A DNA stretch of 24,023 bases from a virus. The position numbers were made by a program, and so were the translations under genes. Within the stretch, counting starts at the first letter, position 1. Each line of letters starts with the position of its first letter. The notes beneath the pieces are model-generated. The model made no database searches, had not been told where the DNA came from, and saw nothing but the letters and a program-made list of their open reading frames with translations. Location of the stretch: the IMG/VR virus record IMGVR_UViG_3300042523_000170, positions 1 to 24,023 of that record. One strand, given 5' to 3'. Below are positions 382 through 10,903 of this stretch, in pieces.

Positions 382-3300
382 ATGGCAAGAATTAAAAAAT
401 ACTCCCCAACGATTGACCCGCATTTAAAATACTATGAAACTTTTTTAGTAGATACGGCACCCAATTCAAGATACTTTAAAATTACAGAGTTTAAAGATAC
501 TTTTACTGGCGGTAAAAATGGATTTTTAATTGAAGGTTCTCCTCAACTTTTGGAGTCTACGGAAATTAAGATTGAAATTTTAGATGTTGAAGGAAATCCA
601 ATTTATTTTGAACCAGGTAATGGTATACCTGAATACTATGAAGGTAATTCTAAAGTTATAGCAGTTTATGTTTATGAGGACACTCCAATAGGAACAGCTG
701 ATATTACTATATTGGGAGAATTGAAACAATACTATGATGGGGTTCAGCTAAAAGATATACCCGATGAATGGAAAGGTATTTATAATGTAAAATGGCAGAG
801 AGATTTTAAAGTAAACAAATTACTTTCAAATGAAGAAAAAGTAAGATTTTATAAAAGACCTACCATTACTATTACTGAAATTGTTAAACCTTTATTTACA
901 ACAATTTTACAACCAACTGTATTAAATGGGTTTGTTAAAGGAACTGCAATAGCACCACCATTAGAGACGTATTTAAAAGATTGGACATTACCAACATACT
1001 ATAAACTAACGGCTGAAAATGATGGATATAACCCTTCTGTATTTTTTACAGGTTCTATGGTAGGTACAAAATTAAATTTTAGTCATCAAGTTTATGATGA
1101 TATTAAAAACTTTAATCTTCCATACACTGACCCAACATACGCTGCTGTAAATAGTTATTCACCCACTGTAGTAGAAGTATTAAACTCTACTGAAATATTA
1201 GTAACCCAACCATTTACGATAAATAATAAATTTGGAAATCCTCTTGTATATCCACTTCCATTGCTTTTTCCAAAAAACCCTGTACCTTATGATTATGATG
1301 GTGATGGTATTAATGATTTAATTGGATTTACTCAACAAGCTAATGGTGCACCATTTACCGCATCTTTTATTGATACTAAAAATATTATTAATATAGCAAG
1401 TGCACTAACTGGTTCATTTGCAAAAATAGATATAAGAGAATTAACGACATTTACAGGTGATGTAGCTAGAGTTAGGATATTTAGAAAATCTCAATCAGAT
1501 GTAGGAAATTACGAATTTACTCAAGAGGTTTTATTGGAATCAAATGAACTATTAGTAGATTATACTGTAGAAACAAAAAACCAAGAAAATTATGGTATAT
1601 TTACAGAACCAATTATAACTGAGTATTGGGATGCATCGGCTGGATTAACTACAACATTCAATCAAGATTATTTATACGCTTCCGTAGAATTAGATGCTGG
1701 TTCTGTACCTAAATATTTTAGTACAAAGGATACATTTACTTTAAGTGAAGGTAAGGAATATGCTTTAAGTTTTAATATTAGAAAAAACGGAATAGATGAT
1801 ACAAGTTATTTAAGAGCATTTTTAAGTGGTTCAAAACAAGTAACAACAAATGGAGTAACAAAAACAATACAAATTGAGCAAGATTTTGCAAAAATATATG
1901 CTGACCCGATTGTGTTAGAAAAAACCACATCTACCAATAATATAAAAGTACAACAAATAGATAATGCAAAACTTTATTTTGAAGTAAGAGGAAATAATTG
2001 GTATATAGCAAATGTAAGTTTAGTTGCTGCACAAGAAACATCATTTTCTCCTGATGAAATAACATTTATACAATCAGTACCAAGAACATTAACAGCAGAA
2101 ACTTTTGATTATCGTTTTGAATTTTATGATATAAATAATAACTACATACCTGTAAAAGTTGAAACTCAAAAACTTTTTACTGGTGGTAATTTACAAGCAA
2201 TTAAAAAGGGTATTTTCTTTAATCCAAAAATTTTAACATTTACATTTGATTCTGCATCAAAACCAGTACCACCAACTACACAATCATTTAATGTAGAAAA
2301 GTTTTTAATTACCGGTTCTATAACTTATACATCTCAATCTTTTGATTTTAATGGTAATTTATTATCTGGATTAGATTATCTTACTGCTGAAGGAATGCCT
2401 GGTTTATTGGATTTGTTTGACTCAGGTTCGGCATCTGATATAGATAATCCATCTATGACAGTAAATCATTTTACAGGTTCTAATCCAGATAAAACAGTCC
2501 AACTTATTAAAATTACAGGAACAACTGAAGGTTATTCAGATACAGTTACCTATGTTAGAATATTAGACGGATTTGGTGGTGTGAATCATTTGATTAGACC
2601 TTATAGAGGAACACAAATTAGAAACAGTAGTACTCAAAGTTTAGAAGTACAAGCAATTAGAATCGATGGTATAAATGATATAGAATTAAGTGCAGCATCA
2701 AGACCTGATAAAAAATGGAATTTAATTCAACTGCATGTACTGAGCGGTTCACAACCTTATCAAAAATTTATTAATTTAGAGAAAGCAAATAGTAGCGGGT
2801 TTGTACAAGGATTAAGTGTTGGTGAATTGGGTAGTAAGGAATTAAACTTTAATGCCGTATTTAATCGTGATTCTATCAATAAAAGAATAACGGTATATAT
2901 GATTGATTCTGCATCAGCAGCATACGATTGGGCATATAATACATCTGGTTCTGTTTTAGCATCTCAAATATTAGAAGATTTGCAAGATGGATTGGATAGT
3001 GGTATAGTTAAATTTAATGCAGATACATTTAATATTGATTTTAGAAATAGTCTATTGTTTGCACCACCATCAGCATCAGCAACTGCATCATTCTATATAA
3101 GGGGTTCGAATACCCAAACAGTAACTGCATCTTTCCAAGTATTTCCATCTATGTCAATTAATGATTGGTATGAGCCTGAGTATTGGATATATTATACTAC
3201 TCAAAGTGTGGATAGTACGATATCAGTAACAGCTATTGATGAGAAAAAAAATGTTGTTAATGCTGGGGCAATCGGTTCGTATATAGGAGCTAATAATAAA

Positions 3301-6300
3301 CAAAGTAAAAATTTAACATTAACATTTACATATACTGAACCATATACTAATGCAACTGCAAATATAGATAAAACATTTACTATTGTACAAAGTGGTAAGC
3401 CTGGAGATGAAACTATAATATTTGAAGTAACCCCTTCCAATGTAATATTAAATGCAAATTCAAAAGGAACTGTATTAGATTATAAGCCATCCATTACGGA
3501 TATTAAATTAAAGCAGGGGTCTAGGTATCTATTGTTTACAGCTAGTGCTGGAAATCCTGGTAAAGGAAACGACGGTACATTCCATATAGCTCAAAACCAA
3601 ATAACATCAATAAACATAAATTCTGGTAGTGTTTACTTTAATCCATCATATACATCATCTTTAAGTGCTAGTGCAGCATCTAATTTTGTTCAATTAAGTG
3701 GTAGTATTACATATCCACTAATCATACATCCTTATTACACATCATCAATTTATACGGCAAGTGTTGTACAGCAATTTACAAAGGCTGTAGACGGAGCGCC
3801 ACCAATTCAGGTAATAATAAATCCTGCAAATGTTAATTTAGGAGCAGACCAAATTGGTATTGTTAAAGATTATAATCAAGCAAATACAATAATCAAATTA
3901 AAAGAAGGAACTGATTATTTAGTATATACAAATACTCAACAACCTGGTACTTTTAGAACATCATCGGTTACGCAAACAAATATTAGTGTATCCACATTAA
4001 CAGCAGACCCATCGGATACAACAAATTTAATTGTAAGTGGATATAGTGCTATGAATTCTAATAGTGCTAGTATTCAATATAATTTTGATGTATATCCATA
4101 TTCACTTTTACCTGGTCATAGAACTGGTTCAATTGCAGTTAGTGGTTCTCAGTATTTTACAAGAACAAAAGATGGACAAACCGCAAGGAGTGTAACTCTA
4201 ACAGCAAATTCTTTAGTAATAAGTTTTGATGGAGATTCTTCAAATCCTGATCCCGGTACTATTACATTAACAGCAAAATCATTTGGAGTAACTGGTTCGG
4301 CATACTATCAATTTTTTAAAGATGGAATTTCATTAGGTGCACCGCTTACCGGCACTACAAAAAATTTAAATTCATCATATCTTCCTATTGCTAATGCTAA
4401 GTCTGTATATAAAGTTGAATTAAGAGATGGTTCTGCCACATTACCTGTTGCAGCAACTGCCGAAATTACAATAGCTGGTGTTAAGGCTGGTGGTGATGGT
4501 TATACTGTAACTTTAACAAATGAAAATACATCTATTGTATATAAAGTATCTGGTGCAACTACAACAACGGGAACTGGTACAAGTATATTAGCAAGTAAAG
4601 GTACAACCGCATTACAACATGTATCATCATTTAGTAATCAAACATATGATAATGATGGAACTTATATAGGTTCGCTGGGACAGTATAAAGTTACAATAGA
4701 TAGTAAATCTGGTTGGTTGGCTTTAGCTGGTAGTCTTGTATCTGGAAGTACTGTACCAACTGTTTCAAATGTGGCAGTTCTTGGAGACCTATCAGGATAT
4801 ACAAGTCCTAATTTATACCCTACCGCAAATATAGTTTTTAAAGTAGATGTAGAGGATGGCAGGGCAGTGTATTATAAAACAGAATCAATAGCAGTTCAAT
4901 ACGAAGGAAACACTGGACCTGGTATAGTAATGAGAGGGGTTTATAAAAATACAATTAACTATATTGGTAGTGTAGAGACAACAAACTATCGTAGAGATGC
5001 AGTAATATATCCAGACCCAACAACGGTGCCTGGTGGTACAGTAACTTATTATGCAGCTGTTAGTGGTAGTGGACCTGGATTGGCAACTGGAGCTCATGCA
5101 CCAACCGCAGGTGGTAATAATGATTGGTGGCAACTTTTGGGAGACCAAGAATTTTTTGTATCTGCAAAGATTGCAATATTTGATGAATCATATGTTAAGA
5201 ATACATTAAACGTTGGTACTTACGCCGATACATCTGAATTTGTAAATGTAATTATAGCTGGTGGTAGAACCGACCCATATATTGCAGTAGGACAAAGTGG
5301 AACATATGGAACGGCTGGAGGAGGATATTCTCCAAACAACCCAGCTATCATTGGATATGGTCAGAGTGGTATCTATATGGGAATATATGAAAATGGTTCT
5401 TTTGGTACAACTGGTAGATTTTCAATTGTAAATGAAGGAACTGCATCAACATCTGGATTATATTGGGATGGTAGTGTATTGACTATTAAAGGGGCTATTA
5501 AGCAAACAGATGCTGGAGTAAATGAGCCAACATTAAAAGGAGTTTGGGCATTCGGTATTACTTACTATAATAATGATGTAGTTAGTTATGATGGAAAATC
5601 TTGGATATGTACATCTGCAACATCTCACTTTTCAACTAATAATACAAATAGTACAACTGGATATCCTGGCTCTGGTCCTTGGAGTACATATATTGATAAA
5701 GGTGATACTGGAGCTGGTGTAGTATATAGAGGTCCATTCACAATAGGAACGGCATATAGTAGTAGTGCTGTTAGAAAAGATGTTGTACAAGGTATTGATG
5801 GAGCATACTATCTATCTAAATTAACATATATACCAACTGGCTCTGATTCAAGACCCGGAGTGGGGCAAACTGCACCAGCAGGTTCAACCGCTGGTACATA
5901 TTGGCAAACATTTGGAGCAACATTTAGTTCGGTAGCAACTGATATATTATTAGCACAAGAAGCTACAATAACAAGAGGATTAGTTATGGGTAGTGATGTT
6001 GGTGGTATTGGTGTAATACGTTCTGTTGATGCATATTCTTTTACATCTGGTAGTGGGTTTTATATGGATAGAACTGGAATAGTTAGATTCGGAAATCCCG
6101 TAGGTAATCAAATAAAATTTGATGGAATTGATTTCCAAATTACTGGTTCAATAAATGCAACGGATGGACAAATTGGAGATTGGGTTATTGATGAAACTAC
6201 AAGAGCATTAAGAGATAATGATTCTCAATTAATATTTGACCCAAATATTCCTGAAATACAATTTTATACTGGAAGTGGTGAAGGTAGAAGTAAAAAGGTA

Positions 6301-7941
6301 AGTATATCCCCACTAAAAGTATTATCGGATTCTGGCGGCGGTTCAAACACTGTAAATTTCACAGGTTCATATTCGCCAGCAAATCCATCAATAACAACAA
6401 ATGCAGGTGATGGGTCGCCCGTATATGTAACTAGTTATTCAACAAAAACATCGACTGGTGGTTCTTCATCAAATGGTACATTTACACCAGCTGACGCAGG
6501 TGATTATCAACTAACTATTGTTACTCCTAGTTTTGCAGTAGAAACCGGACCTGATACAATATCACATACTTCAACTCAACCAGACTTTGAAGCACCTTAC
6601 GATGGATACATACATACCGGATATTCTAATGCACAACAAGCAGCTGCTTATTTATATATAGAAGCCGTAAAAGTTAGTGATAATAGTGTAGTTGGTAGTC
6701 ACCTTATTGGAAGTTCTACTTCCGTTGGGGCAAAAAATGTAGCTGGCTATTGGATTGGATATTCTGGATATCTTTCTGTTACAGGCGATACATTAATTAT
6801 AGATGAATTTGGAAACGAAGTTTATGCTAGAGATATTATTAGTGGACAAAATATCACTGCATGGAATTGGAGTGATTCGTTTAGCACATATAAAGTAGAA
6901 AATGTAAGAAGTAGAACTATTGATAAAGTATTCAAAGTTTCTGCTGGCGGTAATGAAGTAAAAGTATCAGATTCGCATGGATTTTGGTTAGATGGTAACG
7001 AACAAATCAAAGCTAAAGATTTAATATCGGGTGTTAGTAAAATAAATATAAGAGATGGTAATACTATTAAATTAGTAATTGTAGATGATGTAGAAATAAT
7101 TGAGGGCGATGAAATGGTATATACATTCTCTGTACCTGATGTAAATAACTATATTTCAAATGGTATAATATCTCACAATCCAATTGGCATGACAAACTGG
7201 GTAGAAGTACCTGAAAGTATCAACGCAGGGGGTTATGGTGGTGTGGGTGGTTATACTCAGACAATAAATATGTATATAAGTGAGGCAACTCCAGTACAAT
7301 TTAGATATAGATTTTTATATTACGCATATTCAGGAGTTCAAACTGATATAGGAGCATCTCCACTTTCTTATACCACTACCTATTATCCTTGGACATTTGA
7401 TACATGGGTTACTTCACCATCATTTGCTAGTTCTATTATAGTAAAAGCACCAACAAACTTTGTTGAAATTAATGCAGGTGGAATGCAAGTAGTATCGGAT
7501 GAAAATAGATATGTTAAAATGGCAAGACAAGAAGTTGGAGTTGGAGTTTCCGATTTACTTAAAGTTTTGGGTGGAAATATTAAAACAGATACTATATTAC
7601 CAAATGTGGCAGATACAAGTACTATTGGTACAAATGCGAATCAATATGGACATGTGTATGCTAATAATTTTACTAATAATGCATCTTCAGTAAGTGCAAA
7701 CGGATATACAAAATTAACAAATGGAATTATATTACAATGGGGATACCAAGCCTACACTACAACAGCAACACCTGTGGTATTTCCAATAACGTTCCCTACT
7801 GCTTGTACGTCTGTACATGTAACAACAAACAGACTTACTAATGGAGCAAATGGATATAATCATGCTGGTAGTTTAACAACAGCCGGATTTAGTGCAGTAT
7901 TTGATGGAACAGGTGGATGGTGGTCGGCAATTGGATATTAA
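382..7941 (+). CDS. Giant multidomain tail fibre / receptor-binding protein with embedded Hint domain
   Basis: A 2519-residue protein, far longer than most phage fibres. No function is evident for roughly the first 1000 residues, apart from a DxDxDG calcium-loop-like motif at 304-312. From about 1004 to 1514 there are beta-rich modules joined by short Gly/Asp linkers (GKPGDE 1005-1010, VDGAPP 1136-1141, KDGQT, GGDG, EGNTGPG), spaced 108-138 residues. Residues 1514-1840 hold three related segments resembling carbohydrate-binding modules (RGVY.., KGVWAFG.., RGPF..), separated by collagen-like GDTGAG. A 135-residue intein-like Hint domain occupies 2132-2266. The last ~80 residues (GYTKLTNGIILQWG ... 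WWSAIGY) match the gp53-like C-terminal fibre-tip domain, which places receptor contact at this end. The chaperone gene lies 13 bp downstream. ATG 382 is the first start after the promoter-like element. The fibre role is well supported; the receptor is unknown. Confidence 0.85.
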   Translation: MARIKKYSPTIDPHLKYYETFLVDTAPNSRYFKITEFKDTFTGGKNGFLIEGSPQLLESTEIKIEILDVEGNPIYFEPGNGIPEYYEGNSKVIAVYVYEDTPIGTADITILGELKQYYDGVQLKDIPDEWKGIYNVKWQRDFKVNKLLSNEEKVRFYKRPTITITEIVKPLFTTILQPTVLNGFVKGTAIAPPLETYLKDWTLPTYYKLTAENDGYNPSVFFTGSMVGTKLNFSHQVYDDIKNFNLPYTDPTYAAVNSYSPTVVEVLNSTEILVTQPFTINNKFGNPLVYPLPLLFPKNPVPYDYDGDGINDLIGFTQQANGAPFTASFIDTKNIINIASALTGSFAKIDIRELTTFTGDVARVRIFRKSQSDVGNYEFTQEVLLESNELLVDYTVETKNQENYGIFTEPIITEYWDASAGLTTTFNQDYLYASVELDAGSVPKYFSTKDTFTLSEGKEYALSFNIRKNGIDDTSYLRAFLSGSKQVTTNGVTKTIQIEQDFAKIYADPIVLEKTTSTNNIKVQQIDNAKLYFEVRGNNWYIANVSLVAAQETSFSPDEITFIQSVPRTLTAETFDYRFEFYDINNNYIPVKVETQKLFTGGNLQAIKKGIFFNPKILTFTFDSASKPVPPTTQSFNVEKFLITGSITYTSQSFDFNGNLLSGLDYLTAEGMPGLLDLFDSGSASDIDNPSMTVNHFTGSNPDKTVQLIKITGTTEGYSDTVTYVRILDGFGGVNHLIRPYRGTQIRNSSTQSLEVQAIRIDGINDIELSAASRPDKKWNLIQLHVLSGSQPYQKFINLEKANSSGFVQGLSVGELGSKELNFNAVFNRDSINKRITVYMIDSASAAYDWAYNTSGSVLASQILEDLQDGLDSGIVKFNADTFNIDFRNSLLFAPPSASATASFYIRGSNTQTVTASFQVFPSMSINDWYEPEYWIYYTTQSVDSTISVTAIDEKKNVVNAGAIGSYIGANNKQSKNLTLTFTYTEPYTNATANIDKTFTIVQSGKPGDETIIFEVTPSNVILNANSKGTVLDYKPSITDIKLKQGSRYLLFTASAGNPGKGNDGTFHIAQNQITSININSGSVYFNPSYTSSLSASAASNFVQLSGSITYPLIIHPYYTSSIYTASVVQQFTKAVDGAPPIQVIINPANVNLGADQIGIVKDYNQANTIIKLKEGTDYLVYTNTQQPGTFRTSSVTQTNISVSTLTADPSDTTNLIVSGYSAMNSNSASIQYNFDVYPYSLLPGHRTGSIAVSGSQYFTRTKDGQTARSVTLTANSLVISFDGDSSNPDPGTITLTAKSFGVTGSAYYQFFKDGISLGAPLTGTTKNLNSSYLPIANAKSVYKVELRDGSATLPVAATAEITIAGVKAGGDGYTVTLTNENTSIVYKVSGATTTTGTGTSILASKGTTALQHVSSFSNQTYDNDGTYIGSLGQYKVTIDSKSGWLALAGSLVSGSTVPTVSNVAVLGDLSGYTSPNLYPTANIVFKVDVEDGRAVYYKTESIAVQYEGNTGPGIVMRGVYKNTINYIGSVETTNYRRDAVIYPDPTTVPGGTVTYYAAVSGSGPGLATGAHAPTAGGNNDWWQLLGDQEFFVSAKIAIFDESYVKNTLNVGTYADTSEFVNVIIAGGRTDPYIAVGQSGTYGTAGGGYSPNNPAIIGYGQSGIYMGIYENGSFGTTGRFSIVNEGTASTSGLYWDGSVLTIKGAIKQTDAGVNEPTLKGVWAFGITYYNNDVVSYDGKSWICTSATSHFSTNNTNSTTGYPGSGPWSTYIDKGDTGAGVVYRGPFTIGTAYSSSAVRKDVVQGIDGAYYLSKLTYIPTGSDSRPGVGQTAPAGSTAGTYWQTFGATFSSVATDILLAQEATITRGLVMGSDVGGIGVIRSVDAYSFTSGSGFYMDRTGIVRFGNPVGNQIKFDGIDFQITGSINATDGQIGDWVIDETTRALRDNDSQLIFDPNIPEIQFYTGSGEGRSKKVSISPLKVLSDSGGGSNTVNFTGSYSPANPSITTNAGDGSPVYVTSYSTKTSTGGSSSNGTFTPADAGDYQLTIVTPSFAVETGPDTISHTSTQPDFEAPYDGYIHTGYSNAQQAAAYLYIEAVKVSDNSVVGSHLIGSSTSVGAKNVAGYWIGYSGYLSVTGDTLIIDEFGNEVYARDIISGQNITAWNWSDSFSTYKVENVRSRTIDKVFKVSAGGNEVKVSDSHGFWLDGNEQIKAKDLISGVSKINIRDGNTIKLVIVDDVEIIEGDEMVYTFSVPDVNNYISNGIISHNPIGMTNWVEVPESINAGGYGGVGGYTQTINMYISEATPVQFRYRFLYYAYSGVQTDIGASPLSYTTTYYPWTFDTWVTSPSFASSIIVKAPTNFVEINAGGMQVVSDENRYVKMARQEVGVGVSDLLKVLGGNIKTDTILPNVADTSTIGTNANQYGHVYANNFTNNASSVSANGYTKLTNGIILQWGYQAYTTTATPVVFPITFPTACTSVHVTTNRLTNGANGYNHAGSLTTAGFSAVFDGTGGWWSAIGY
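1291..1317 (+). other. Calcium-loop-like DxDxDGxxD motif in the tail fibre
   Basis: Residues 304-312 read DYDGDGIND, the spacing of EF-hand, dockerin and thrombospondin type 3 Ca2+-binding loops. Such loops commonly stabilise secreted beta-rich proteins. There is only one clear copy, and it is followed by hydrophobic LIGF, so a real metal site is plausible but unproven. Confidence 0.4.
3391..4921 (+). repeat. Degenerate tandem modules of the fibre shaft, ~110-140 residues each
   Basis: Linkers recur at D1009, D1137, D1264, D1372 and N1510, giving spacings of 128, 127, 108 and 138 residues. The first two modules share the pattern 'beta strand - P - [AS]NV.L.A - G.V.DY - I[IK]LK.G..YL.[FY]T', so they are clear homologues. 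The later ones are more diverged. The repeats are at protein level only; DNA identity is low, which argues for old duplication. Confidence 0.6.
6775..7179 (+). other. Intein-like (Hint) domain inside the tail fibre, no homing endonuclease
   Basis: Residues 2132-2266. Block A reads SVTGDTLII, where inteins usually start with Cys; here Ser2132 is position 1. Block B has S-D-S-H (Ser2196, His2199), equivalent to the TxxH motif. The C-terminal block reads MVYTFSVPDVNNYISNGII followed by Ser-His-Asn, with the canonical penultimate His2265 and terminal Asn2266. At 135 residues it is mini-intein size with no room for an endonuclease. The next residue is Pro2267 rather than the Cys/Ser/Thr needed for normal splicing, so it resembles a type-A bacterial intein-like domain that may cleave, splice by a variant route, or be inactive. 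Removing it would join ...IGYSGYL to PIGMTNW..., a plausible continuous fibre segment. The Hint assignment is strong; the activity is unknown. Confidence 0.85.
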
Positions 7942-7954
7942 AAAATAAAAATAT

Positions 7955-8326
7955 ATGATTTATTACGCAACATTTAATGAAACGGAAGACTATACTGGAT
8001 TTTATACCAAAGAAATACATGGTGATAATATTCCAACCCCAAATGTAGAATTGACAGAAGCGCAATGGAAAGAAGCTATTACGGGTAGATATAAATTAGT
8101 AGATGGAGTGCATACTCATAATCCATTCACACAGGAACAATTGGATGTCAAAGAACTATCAATAGCTAGGAGTAATAGAAACAATTTACTTAAAGAATCC
8201 GATTGGACACAATTACCAAATAATCCACTAACCGCTGAAAAGCAAGAGGAATGGAATGTATATAGACAAAAATTAAGAGATATTCCAAAAACAATTCCAT
8301 ATATATTCCCAGAACCACCACTTTAA
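7955..8326 (+). CDS. Tail fibre assembly chaperone
   Basis: A 123-residue protein. The C-terminal half contains NRNNLLKESDWTQLPNNPLT, then EEWNVYRQKLRDIP and a Pro-rich end. This is the hallmark of the phage tail assembly chaperone family (Phage_tail_APC): R-N-x-L-L-x-x-S-D-W-T-Q-x-P, then W-x-x-Y-R-x-x-L-R-D-I-P. Family members help fold or trimerise the fibre encoded next door. The N-terminal half (MIYYATFNETEDYTGFYTKE) resembles the short beta-rich leader of such proteins. It lies 13 bp after the fibre stop with no promoter element between them, so the two are probably co-transcribed and this protein serves the 2519-residue fibre. No Shine-Dalgarno is visible; the first ATG gives the full domain. 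Confidence 0.85.
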   Translation: MIYYATFNETEDYTGFYTKEIHGDNIPTPNVELTEAQWKEAITGRYKLVDGVHTHNPFTQEQLDVKELSIARSNRNNLLKESDWTQLPNNPLTAEKQEEWNVYRQKLRDIPKTIPYIFPEPPL

Positions 8327-8710: not shown

Positions 8711-10903
8711 ATGAGTAAAAAGAAATTACTGTATGTTTGTCCCCACCTTTCTACCGGCGGACAACCTCAATACACTTACAAGCAGATAAAGCAATTTATC
8801 AATGATTACCAAATAGAAGTTGTTGAAATAAACAATAGCGGTGGAACTGCGTTTGTAGTACAAAAGAATAAAATTAAAGCATTAGTTCCTGTTCATACAT
8901 TAGGGGATAACAGAGCAGAAATAATTGATATCATTAATACTTTCAAACCTGATATTATACATTTTCAGGAGATTCCACAACATGATTTATCAACTGATAT
9001 TTTAGATAGAATATTTTCGGATAAAAGAAAATATTTTATTGTAGCATCTACACATGGGTCTTTAACAAATCCTGAAGAAATAATTTACCATCCCGATAGA
9101 TATATTTTAGTATCCGAATGGAGTAGACAAAAGTTTATTGATACTGGTGTTGAAACTGATATATGGGAATATCCAATCGAAGAATATGTGTTTGATAAAG
9201 CAACTGCACAAAAAGAATTAGGATTTGAATCTGATTGGAAGCATGTACTTAATGTTGGATTATTTGCACCAGGTAAAAATCAAGGTGAAGTATTTGCAAT
9301 AGCAAGGCAATTAGAAAAATACAAAATTAAATTTCACTTTGTAGGAAATCAAGCTGGAAACTTTGAACATTATTGGGGAGATATAATGAAATACAAACCT
9401 GATAATTGTATTGTTTGGGGAGAAAGAAATGATGTTGATACTTTTTACGCAGCATCGGATATGTTCTACTTTAGTTCTATAATTGAATTAAATCCGTTAT
9501 CAGTTAAAGAAGCACTATCATACGGACTACCATCTATATTTAGAAAGTTACCAACTTATTTAGATACATACGATAATAATCCATTGGTTACATACATTGG
9601 TGATGATTTAAAAGTTACTAAAAAAATTATATTAGAAACTTTACAACCTGAATTCAATGAGATACCGGGTTGGTTTGTTTATGATACTATGTATGATGAT
9701 ATGGTTAAGAATGCTAAAGGTGGTGAAACTTTTGTTGAGTTGGGTTCTTGGTTTGGTAAGTCTACAAATTATATGGCAACTAAAATTAAAGAATCTGGTA
9801 AGGATATAAAATTCACAACAATAGATACATTTAAAGGAACTGCAGATGAAGGGTTGCATAATACAATAGTAAATGGGTCTTTTGATGGAGATATATTTTA
9901 TGAATTTATAGATAACACAATCATATCAGATAACTACGGAACATTTGATATCATAAAAGATACATCACATAATGCTACCAACCAATTTCAAAATAACAGC
10001 ATTGATTATATAATGTTAGATGGTGGGCATAGTTATGAGGATGTAAACGAAGATATAAAACTTTGGTATAATAAAGTAAAACCGGGTGGATATATTTCTG
10101 GAGATGATTATGGTGGTAGTTTCTTTCCTGGTGTTACTAAAGCAGTTGATGAATATTTTTATAATCAATGTGAAATTGGATTTAGAACTTGGAAAATGAA
10201 AAAACCAAGAATACAAATAAAGCATTTATTAACAAGACCTGATGATGCTAGAGAAAGAGTAAGTATTCAATCATTAAAGCAATTATCAAAATACGGAATG
10301 GATTATGTACAAATGATAAATACTCCATACGAAGGATTAGCACCTGTTGAAAATTGTAGAAGACCTGAAAATGTTAGTAAAGATAATAAGCCGGGTGAAT
10401 TATATCCGGGAGCAGGTATTGGATATATTACGGGTAGACACTATGGTTGTTATCTAGCACATAGAGGAGCTTTGGAATCTATTGATGATACAAATTATGA
10501 TTATACTTTAATATTTGAAGCAGATGCTTTTATTAATGTAGGTATTGAGGAGTTTGTTGAAATAGTACATAGAGCTTGTTTCATTTCACAAAGAGATAAT
10601 GTTTATTATATAGGATTCGCAAATAATCCTTCTTGGAATAGATGGGGAGTTGATGAACTATTTGCAAAAACTGATTTTAATCAAGACCTTGCACATTGTT
10701 ATTTAATTCCAAATCGACACAAACAATTCTATATGGATAGACTGGAGGATATTGGATGGGATGTTGGTGATTTATGGTACAACCATGTATTCTATGACCA
10801 TAGACATTTGAGATATACAACTAATAAAAATTATAGTAAGCAAGCTGAGGGCTATTCTTTATTAGATGAAAAAATAAAAAGTTGGAAAGAAAATTGGAAC
10901 TAA
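8711..10903 (+). CDS. Three-domain GT4 glycosyltransferase / methyltransferase / second glycosyltransferase
   Basis: A 730-residue protein with three apparent catalytic domains. Residues 1-~315 form a GT-B fold of the GT4 type: HLSTGG near the N-terminus, a VGLFAPGKNQGE strand-loop, and the donor-binding E-x7-E motif (E259, E267, in IELNPLSVKEALSYGLPS). Residues ~325-490 are a class I SAM-dependent methyltransferase of the Methyltransf_24 type: motif I VELGSWFGKST (342-352), an acidic D372, YIMLDGGHSYEDV (433-445) and KPGGYISGDDY (457-467). Residues ~500-730 resemble a GT-A sugar transferase with an acidic motif EAD (603-605) in YTLIFEADAFI; the exact family is uncertain (GT25-like is possible). 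Sugar donors and acceptor are unknown. The stop overlaps the next start (TAATG), so it is coupled to the heptosyltransferase-like gene, and together they suggest synthesis of a methylated glycan on a phage protein. Confidence 0.75.
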   Translation: MSKKKLLYVCPHLSTGGQPQYTYKQIKQFINDYQIEVVEINNSGGTAFVVQKNKIKALVPVHTLGDNRAEIIDIINTFKPDIIHFQEIPQHDLSTDILDRIFSDKRKYFIVASTHGSLTNPEEIIYHPDRYILVSEWSRQKFIDTGVETDIWEYPIEEYVFDKATAQKELGFESDWKHVLNVGLFAPGKNQGEVFAIARQLEKYKIKFHFVGNQAGNFEHYWGDIMKYKPDNCIVWGERNDVDTFYAASDMFYFSSIIELNPLSVKEALSYGLPSIFRKLPTYLDTYDNNPLVTYIGDDLKVTKKIILETLQPEFNEIPGWFVYDTMYDDMVKNAKGGETFVELGSWFGKSTNYMATKIKESGKDIKFTTIDTFKGTADEGLHNTIVNGSFDGDIFYEFIDNTIISDNYGTFDIIKDTSHNATNQFQNNSIDYIMLDGGHSYEDVNEDIKLWYNKVKPGGYISGDDYGGSFFPGVTKAVDEYFYNQCEIGFRTWKMKKPRIQIKHLLTRPDDARERVSIQSLKQLSKYGMDYVQMINTPYEGLAPVENCRRPENVSKDNKPGELYPGAGIGYITGRHYGCYLAHRGALESIDDTNYDYTLIFEADAFINVGIEEFVEIVHRACFISQRDNVYYIGFANNPSWNRWGVDELFAKTDFNQDLAHCYLIPNRHKQFYMDRLEDIGWDVGDLWYNHVFYDHRHLRYTTNKNYSKQAEGYSLLDEKIKSWKENWN

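Follow-up and report, generated by a model that had tools for sequence, protein, structure and literature searches.

A cysteine-free Hint domain resembling type-A bacterial intein-like domains in a predicted surface loop of a T4-like phage tail fibre

Phage inteins are reported mainly from conserved enzymes, while bacterial intein-like domains (BILs) are reported from bacterial surface or secreted proteins; published examples come from bacteria and in most cases begin with Cys (Cys1). Type-A BILs end in His-Asn, have no nucleophile at the residue following the domain (+1) and reside in variable regions; cleavage is their usual outcome and splicing, through direct aminolysis, an occasional one (PMC4031507, PMC7765530). 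A published mark of these domains is that their +1 side chain is not conserved (PMC4031507, PMC5874633). Within the open-access literature (subscription journals were outside the scope of our search) we found no intein or BIL described in a phage tail fibre. Here we describe a Hint domain in the tail fibre of a T4-like virus together with its relatives. We conclude that the insert probably belongs to an active, cysteine-free, Ser1-type family resembling type-A BILs, which would sit in a variable loop at the surface of fibres of T4-like phages and excise itself. We read the family as active because its catalytic positions are invariant, synonymous codons turn over, dN/dS is low and the fold is that of a Hint domain, and because of the literature on type-A BILs.

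The window, i.e. the whole stretch of viral DNA that was analysed (24,023 nucleotides; positions 1 to 24,023 of IMG/VR record IMGVR_UViG_3300042523_000170), has one open reading frame of 2519 amino acids at positions 382-7941 (plus strand, as are the features given below for the fibre and for the Tfa-like gene) that hosts the domain. We assign this uninterrupted frame to a tail fibre because it ends in a Gp53-like C-terminal tip domain (aa 2444-2519, positions 7711-7938; PF21882, 5.5e-12) and is directly followed by a gene for a tail-fibre assembly (Tfa-like) chaperone (7955-8326; phrog_8716, phrog_4912). The terminase of the window is T4-like, the nearest named phages being Flavobacterium phage immuto (56.8%) and Microcystis phage Mel-JY01 (55.5%), and the hosts of the virus are aquatic bacteria. 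Adjoining the fibre, at 8711-10903, lies a glycosyltransferase fused to a methyltransferase-like part, which is approximately 70% identical in most relatives while the fibres diverge widely. The fibre tip is swapped whole among relatives (L094/L097, L071, L017, L044 and L021), and in some of these the Gp53-like tip and the Tfa-like gene are replaced by a motif that we read as resembling an S74-type intramolecular chaperone.

The Hint domain comprises 135 residues (aa 2132-2266, positions 6775-7179), with neither an endonuclease nor a cysteine, and reads SVTGDTLI...SDSH...VYTFSV...NGIISHN, followed by Pro. The codon for Ser1, the N-terminal nucleophile, is at 6775-6777, that for the block-B His68 (in SDSH) at 6976-6978 and that for Thr117 at 7123-7125, whereas Ser133-His134-Asn135 at the end of block G are encoded by 7171-7179. 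Thr117 is position 4 of block F (F:4), which is usually Asp in class-1 inteins and Cys in class-3 inteins. The assignment is secure since four kinds of evidence support it. First, the domain matches Pfam Intein_splicing (PF14890) with values of 3.9e-8 to 6.8e-8, slightly under the curated score cut-off, a profile that all 22 aligned family members match, and its match to NCBIfam intein_Cterm exceeds the cut-off. Second, a profile of the 22 members searched against the PDB retrieved the Spl DnaX mini-intein (3.8e-10), Tetrahymena BIL2 (1.4e-9) and the Clostridium BIL (2lwy, 1.2e-6), with DnaB inteins also among the matches; with the family profile the BIL structure scores no better than ordinary mini-inteins, a point against the type-A BIL reading. 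Third, AlphaFold modelled the domain, using the family alignment, with a pLDDT of 87.5 and a pTM of 0.83. Fourth, the top Foldseek matches of this model are all Hint structures, with E-values down to 2.4e-9 and TM scores of 0.84 for Npu DnaB (4o1r) and 0.83 for the Clostridium thermocellum BIL (2lwy). The intein-like sequence at 6775-7179 is thus far beyond chance. The preliminary description had placed a Hint domain with Ser1 and a Pro after the final Asn inside the fibre: its coordinates are exact to the base, both residues were confirmed in the translation, and the structural comparison that it called for matches mini-inteins as well as the Clostridium BIL.

The domain interrupts a beta-sandwich domain of the fibre. 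The N-terminal half of the latter spans aa 2032-2131 (6475-6774; last strand at about 6748-6765), as seen from flank alignment with intein-free homologues and from AlphaFold. The C-terminal half, with the coil that follows it, runs to aa 2401 (7183-7584; first strand at about 7192-7209) according to the multiple alignment and AlphaFold. When the flanks of family members were joined and compared with all other fibres, they aligned across the junction with the intein-free homologues L125, L107, L165, L163, L147, L144, L177 and L158, and in a multiple alignment all Hint domains are inserted at about the same place. In an AlphaFold model of the whole segment (pLDDT 83, pTM 0.53) the Hint domain is flanked by a strand that ends at aa 2128 and another that starts at aa 2271. 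From this monomer model of moderate global confidence, and because the same beta-sandwich domain is uninterrupted in intein-free relatives, the insert is predicted to sit in a surface loop. The best matches in a Foldseek search with the whole interrupted segment were all Hint structures, none of them a match to the host domain. Homologues lacking the insert had been suggested as a check; such homologues exist, but they are more distant, and an exact empty-site allele of the GYL/PIG loop was not found among them. The proposal that cleavage would release the receptor-binding tip is weakened by these alignments, in which the intein-free homologues run straight across the junction and the insert falls in a loop of one domain. 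Cutting nicks this loop and therefore would not by itself free the 253-aa tip, and the two halves of the beta-sandwich should, judging from the model, stay folded together after cutting.

Relatives, numbered as L loci, were gathered by scans of viral contigs, and yielded 23 distinct full-length domains including that of the window; the 22 further phage-fibre members are roughly 35-97% identical. Every Hint domain of the family lies within a long open frame, about 250-340 aa ahead of the fibre C-terminus. Conservation figures refer to 22 aligned members and counts at +1 to the 23 distinct ones. Invariant among the 22 are Ser1, Val2, Val64, Ser65, His68, Phe70 and Val115, as well as Asn125, Tyr126, Ser128, Asn129, Ile131, Ser133, His134 and Asn135; the only conserved His columns are His68 and His134, and no Cys is conserved, most members being entirely without it. 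Across the 23 members Ser1 is encoded by all four TCN codons and His68 by both His codons, and because synonymous codons turn over at these positions we take the two residues to be kept by selection. For the Hint domain dN/dS is 0.10-0.25 in most close pairs, with 0.25 between the window and L002 (small counts, four synonymous and four non-synonymous changes); two pairs of the L185 group give 0.53 and 0.66, a weaker constraint that counts against activity. Two scans across 84,980 genomes of bacteria and archaea revealed no relatives of the family, and searches of named phages only distant Hint domains (e.g. Planktothrix phage DnaB, 28%), so no cultured host phage is known. The presence of such a domain in at least 22 related fibres makes the fibre Hint look like a functional module that they share, and not like a relic.

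Among related loci, compared over the fibre end adjoining the glycosyltransferase gene, the Hint domain is present in 7 of 62, and four of these seven belong to the lineage of the window and L002. In some pairs synonymous distances are much lower in the Hint than in the flanking fibre DNA: 0.14 vs 0.86 and 0.95 for L185/L189, 0.13 vs 0.39 and 0.68 for L170/L127, and 0.07 vs 0.54 and 0.29 for L185/L199. These distances point to exchange of the module between fibres by recombination, with no endonuclease in the domain.

Other Hint domains were seen in the same material. Directly downstream of the Hint-bearing fibre of L190, at positions 1576-2325 of that locus, a 250-aa Gly-rich protein ends in a second, Cys1-type Hint (GGGGCILTGE...IVVHN) followed by only eight residues; such a partner gene was sought near all family members and was found at L190 only. 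In L219, L220 and L221 the frame starting at position 3729 encodes a 1563-aa protein with a terminal Cys-type Hint (GGGGGCVAPNVMILMADG...SNDILSHN), after which 14 residues remain. Moreover, apparent T4-like terminase genes of L210-L218 and L222-L224 contain inteins that are similar in block G to the fibre Hint family and have the junction SNDILSHN-[ST]T.

Compared with the described classes, the working mode of the fibre Hint is, as judged from sequence and fold, most like that of type-A BILs, which we consider the best class for it. The preliminary description had listed this class among its options, and the option gains from the His-Asn end in 22 of 22 members, the lack of a required +1 nucleophile and the location in variable regions of non-conserved proteins, together with the Hint fold shared with the Clostridium BIL. 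Unlike type-A BILs, which are found in bacterial proteins, the fibre Hint is part of a phage structural protein, has Ser1 and a Thr or Ser at F:4 with no conserved Cys, and favours Pro and aliphatic residues at +1; the absence of cysteine and the presence in a phage thus appear to set the family apart from published BILs. Tetrahymena BUBL BIL2 (6y75, 6tmm) gave the best Foldseek E-value, but is a Cys1 domain of a eukaryotic polyprotein. The inteins in terminase, RNR, DnaB and similar genes of phages are likewise phage-borne Hint domains, but reside in conserved enzymes. Membership among type-B BILs, which lack an intein-like block G with the His-Asn end, was ruled out by the invariant SHN.

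In the mechanism that we propose, Ser1 would make an N-O acyl shift at Leu2131-Ser2132, Asn2266 would cyclise at Asn2266-Pro2267, and through both end reactions the 135-residue domain would leave the fibre. Since no +1 side chain can accept the N-terminal half, any joining would have to follow the route proposed for type-A BILs, in which the newly freed amine of the +1 residue attacks the Ser1 ester directly. This aminolysis could be slow, since a Ser1 ester reacts less readily than a thioester, and in engineered inteins bulky or Pro residues at +1 slow Asn cleavage. Otherwise the loop would stay nicked, with the beta-sandwich halves held by their own fold and the fibre trimer. The earlier expectation that Pro at +1 blocks splicing is sound for class-1 inteins that use canonical transesterification, but type-A BILs described in the literature still cleave and partly splice with no +1 nucleophile (PMC4031507). 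We find it doubtful that the family is instead a separate Hint class of phage receptor-binding fibres, cysteine-free, in which Ser1, the block-F Thr/Ser and the block-G Ser would replace the +1 nucleophile, the module would move between fibres and these would be rejoined or left nicked in a receptor-binding loop after translation; Pro, Val or Ile, favoured at +1, would then perhaps hold the reaction back until folding and trimerisation of the fibre are complete.

Another reading is that the domain descends from a class-1 intein (Ser1/Ser+1), was deprived of the +1 nucleophile in the window lineage and is now decaying, decay being an option that the preliminary description had also listed. Class-1 mini-inteins such as Npu/Ssp DnaB and Spl DnaX share with the fibre Hint the fold, the A/B/F/G block order, Ser1, the His-Asn end, a patchy presence and intein-free alleles. 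Unlike them, the fibre Hint lies in a variable loop of a divergent domain rather than at a conserved enzyme site, lacks Cys, Ser or Thr at +1 in 20 of the 23 members, and is without the NX-motif His that is conserved in Ser1 class-1 inteins (PMC10189870). The window carries Pro at +1 (7180-7182), whereas L002 and L003, 97% identical to it in the domain, have one extra triplet in the DNA alignment (CACAAT-AGT-CCA vs CACAAT-CCA, i.e. HN-Ser-Pro), and Ser at +1 is also present in L170 and L127. L001 and L004, from two other metagenomes, have the same junction as the window, which therefore is not an assembly slip. Our first reading of the single-triplet difference, that the window had lost a +1 Ser, was given up when its support was removed by the outgroups L195 and L201 on the tree; since both carry Pro, a gain of Ser in L002 is slightly favoured over a loss in the window, on few sequences. 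Over the 23 members +1 is Pro in nine, Val in six, Ser in three, Ile in two, Ala in two and Phe in one, and never Cys or Thr, while in the surrounding fibre Thr is more frequent than any other residue (11.7%) and Pro accounts for only 3.7%. The tree requires at least nine changes at +1, four for Pro alone, and Pro recurs in at least three lineages; being the commonest +1 residue, it is not a defect peculiar to the window. Whichever direction Ser and Pro changed, the side chain at +1 is, on this comparison, not what natural selection keeps. With Pro, Val, Ile, Ala and Phe there alongside open frames and catalytic positions that are invariant in the 22 aligned members, decay of a class-1 intein is unlikely.

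Equally to be weighed is a splicer with an internal hydroxyl, where the F:4 Thr/Ser would take the N-extein from Ser1 to give a class-3-like branched ester, after which Asn would cyclise and the amine attack the ester. F:4 is Thr in 18 and Ser in 4 of the 22 members, all of which have Ser at G:5 and Phe at B:12. At these three positions the class-3 WCT triad has its Cys, Thr and Trp; in MchDnaB1 Cys124-His65-Thr143 and Trp67 align with Thr117-His68-Ser133 and Phe70 of the window (PMC7664689), a correspondence drawn from sequence alignment. The conserved block-F hydroxyl and block-G Ser suggest an internal acceptor, but class-3 inteins lack Ser1/Cys1 and use Cys at F:4, whereas the fibre family keeps Ser1 strictly and has no Cys, and hydroxyls are poorer nucleophiles than Cys. 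Class-3 membership was rejected on account of Ser1, and we hold the internal-hydroxyl route to be improbable.

It is also quite improbable that the mature fibre keeps the domain, either folded as a bulge or serving as a reactive ester that links the fibre to another molecule such as host surface glycans: Hedgehog Hint domains do pass an ester to a foreign nucleophile and the site is a predicted surface loop of the domain adjoining the tip, but the strict His-Asn conservation points to a C-terminal reaction in use and a cofactor-binding extension is absent. That it is a catalytically silent structural domain, in line with its sporadic and dispensable occurrence (7 of 62 fibres), is very improbable, as the invariant residues are exactly the catalytic ones.

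Finally, a fibre family that combines invariant cutting residues with indifference at +1 makes ligation by oxygen nucleophiles alone, with no +1 side chain taking part, testable, and likewise the post-translational cutting or splicing of tail fibres near the receptor-binding tip. If active, the fibre Hint would offer a candidate tool, free of cysteine and tolerant of Pro at +1, for cleavage or ligation.
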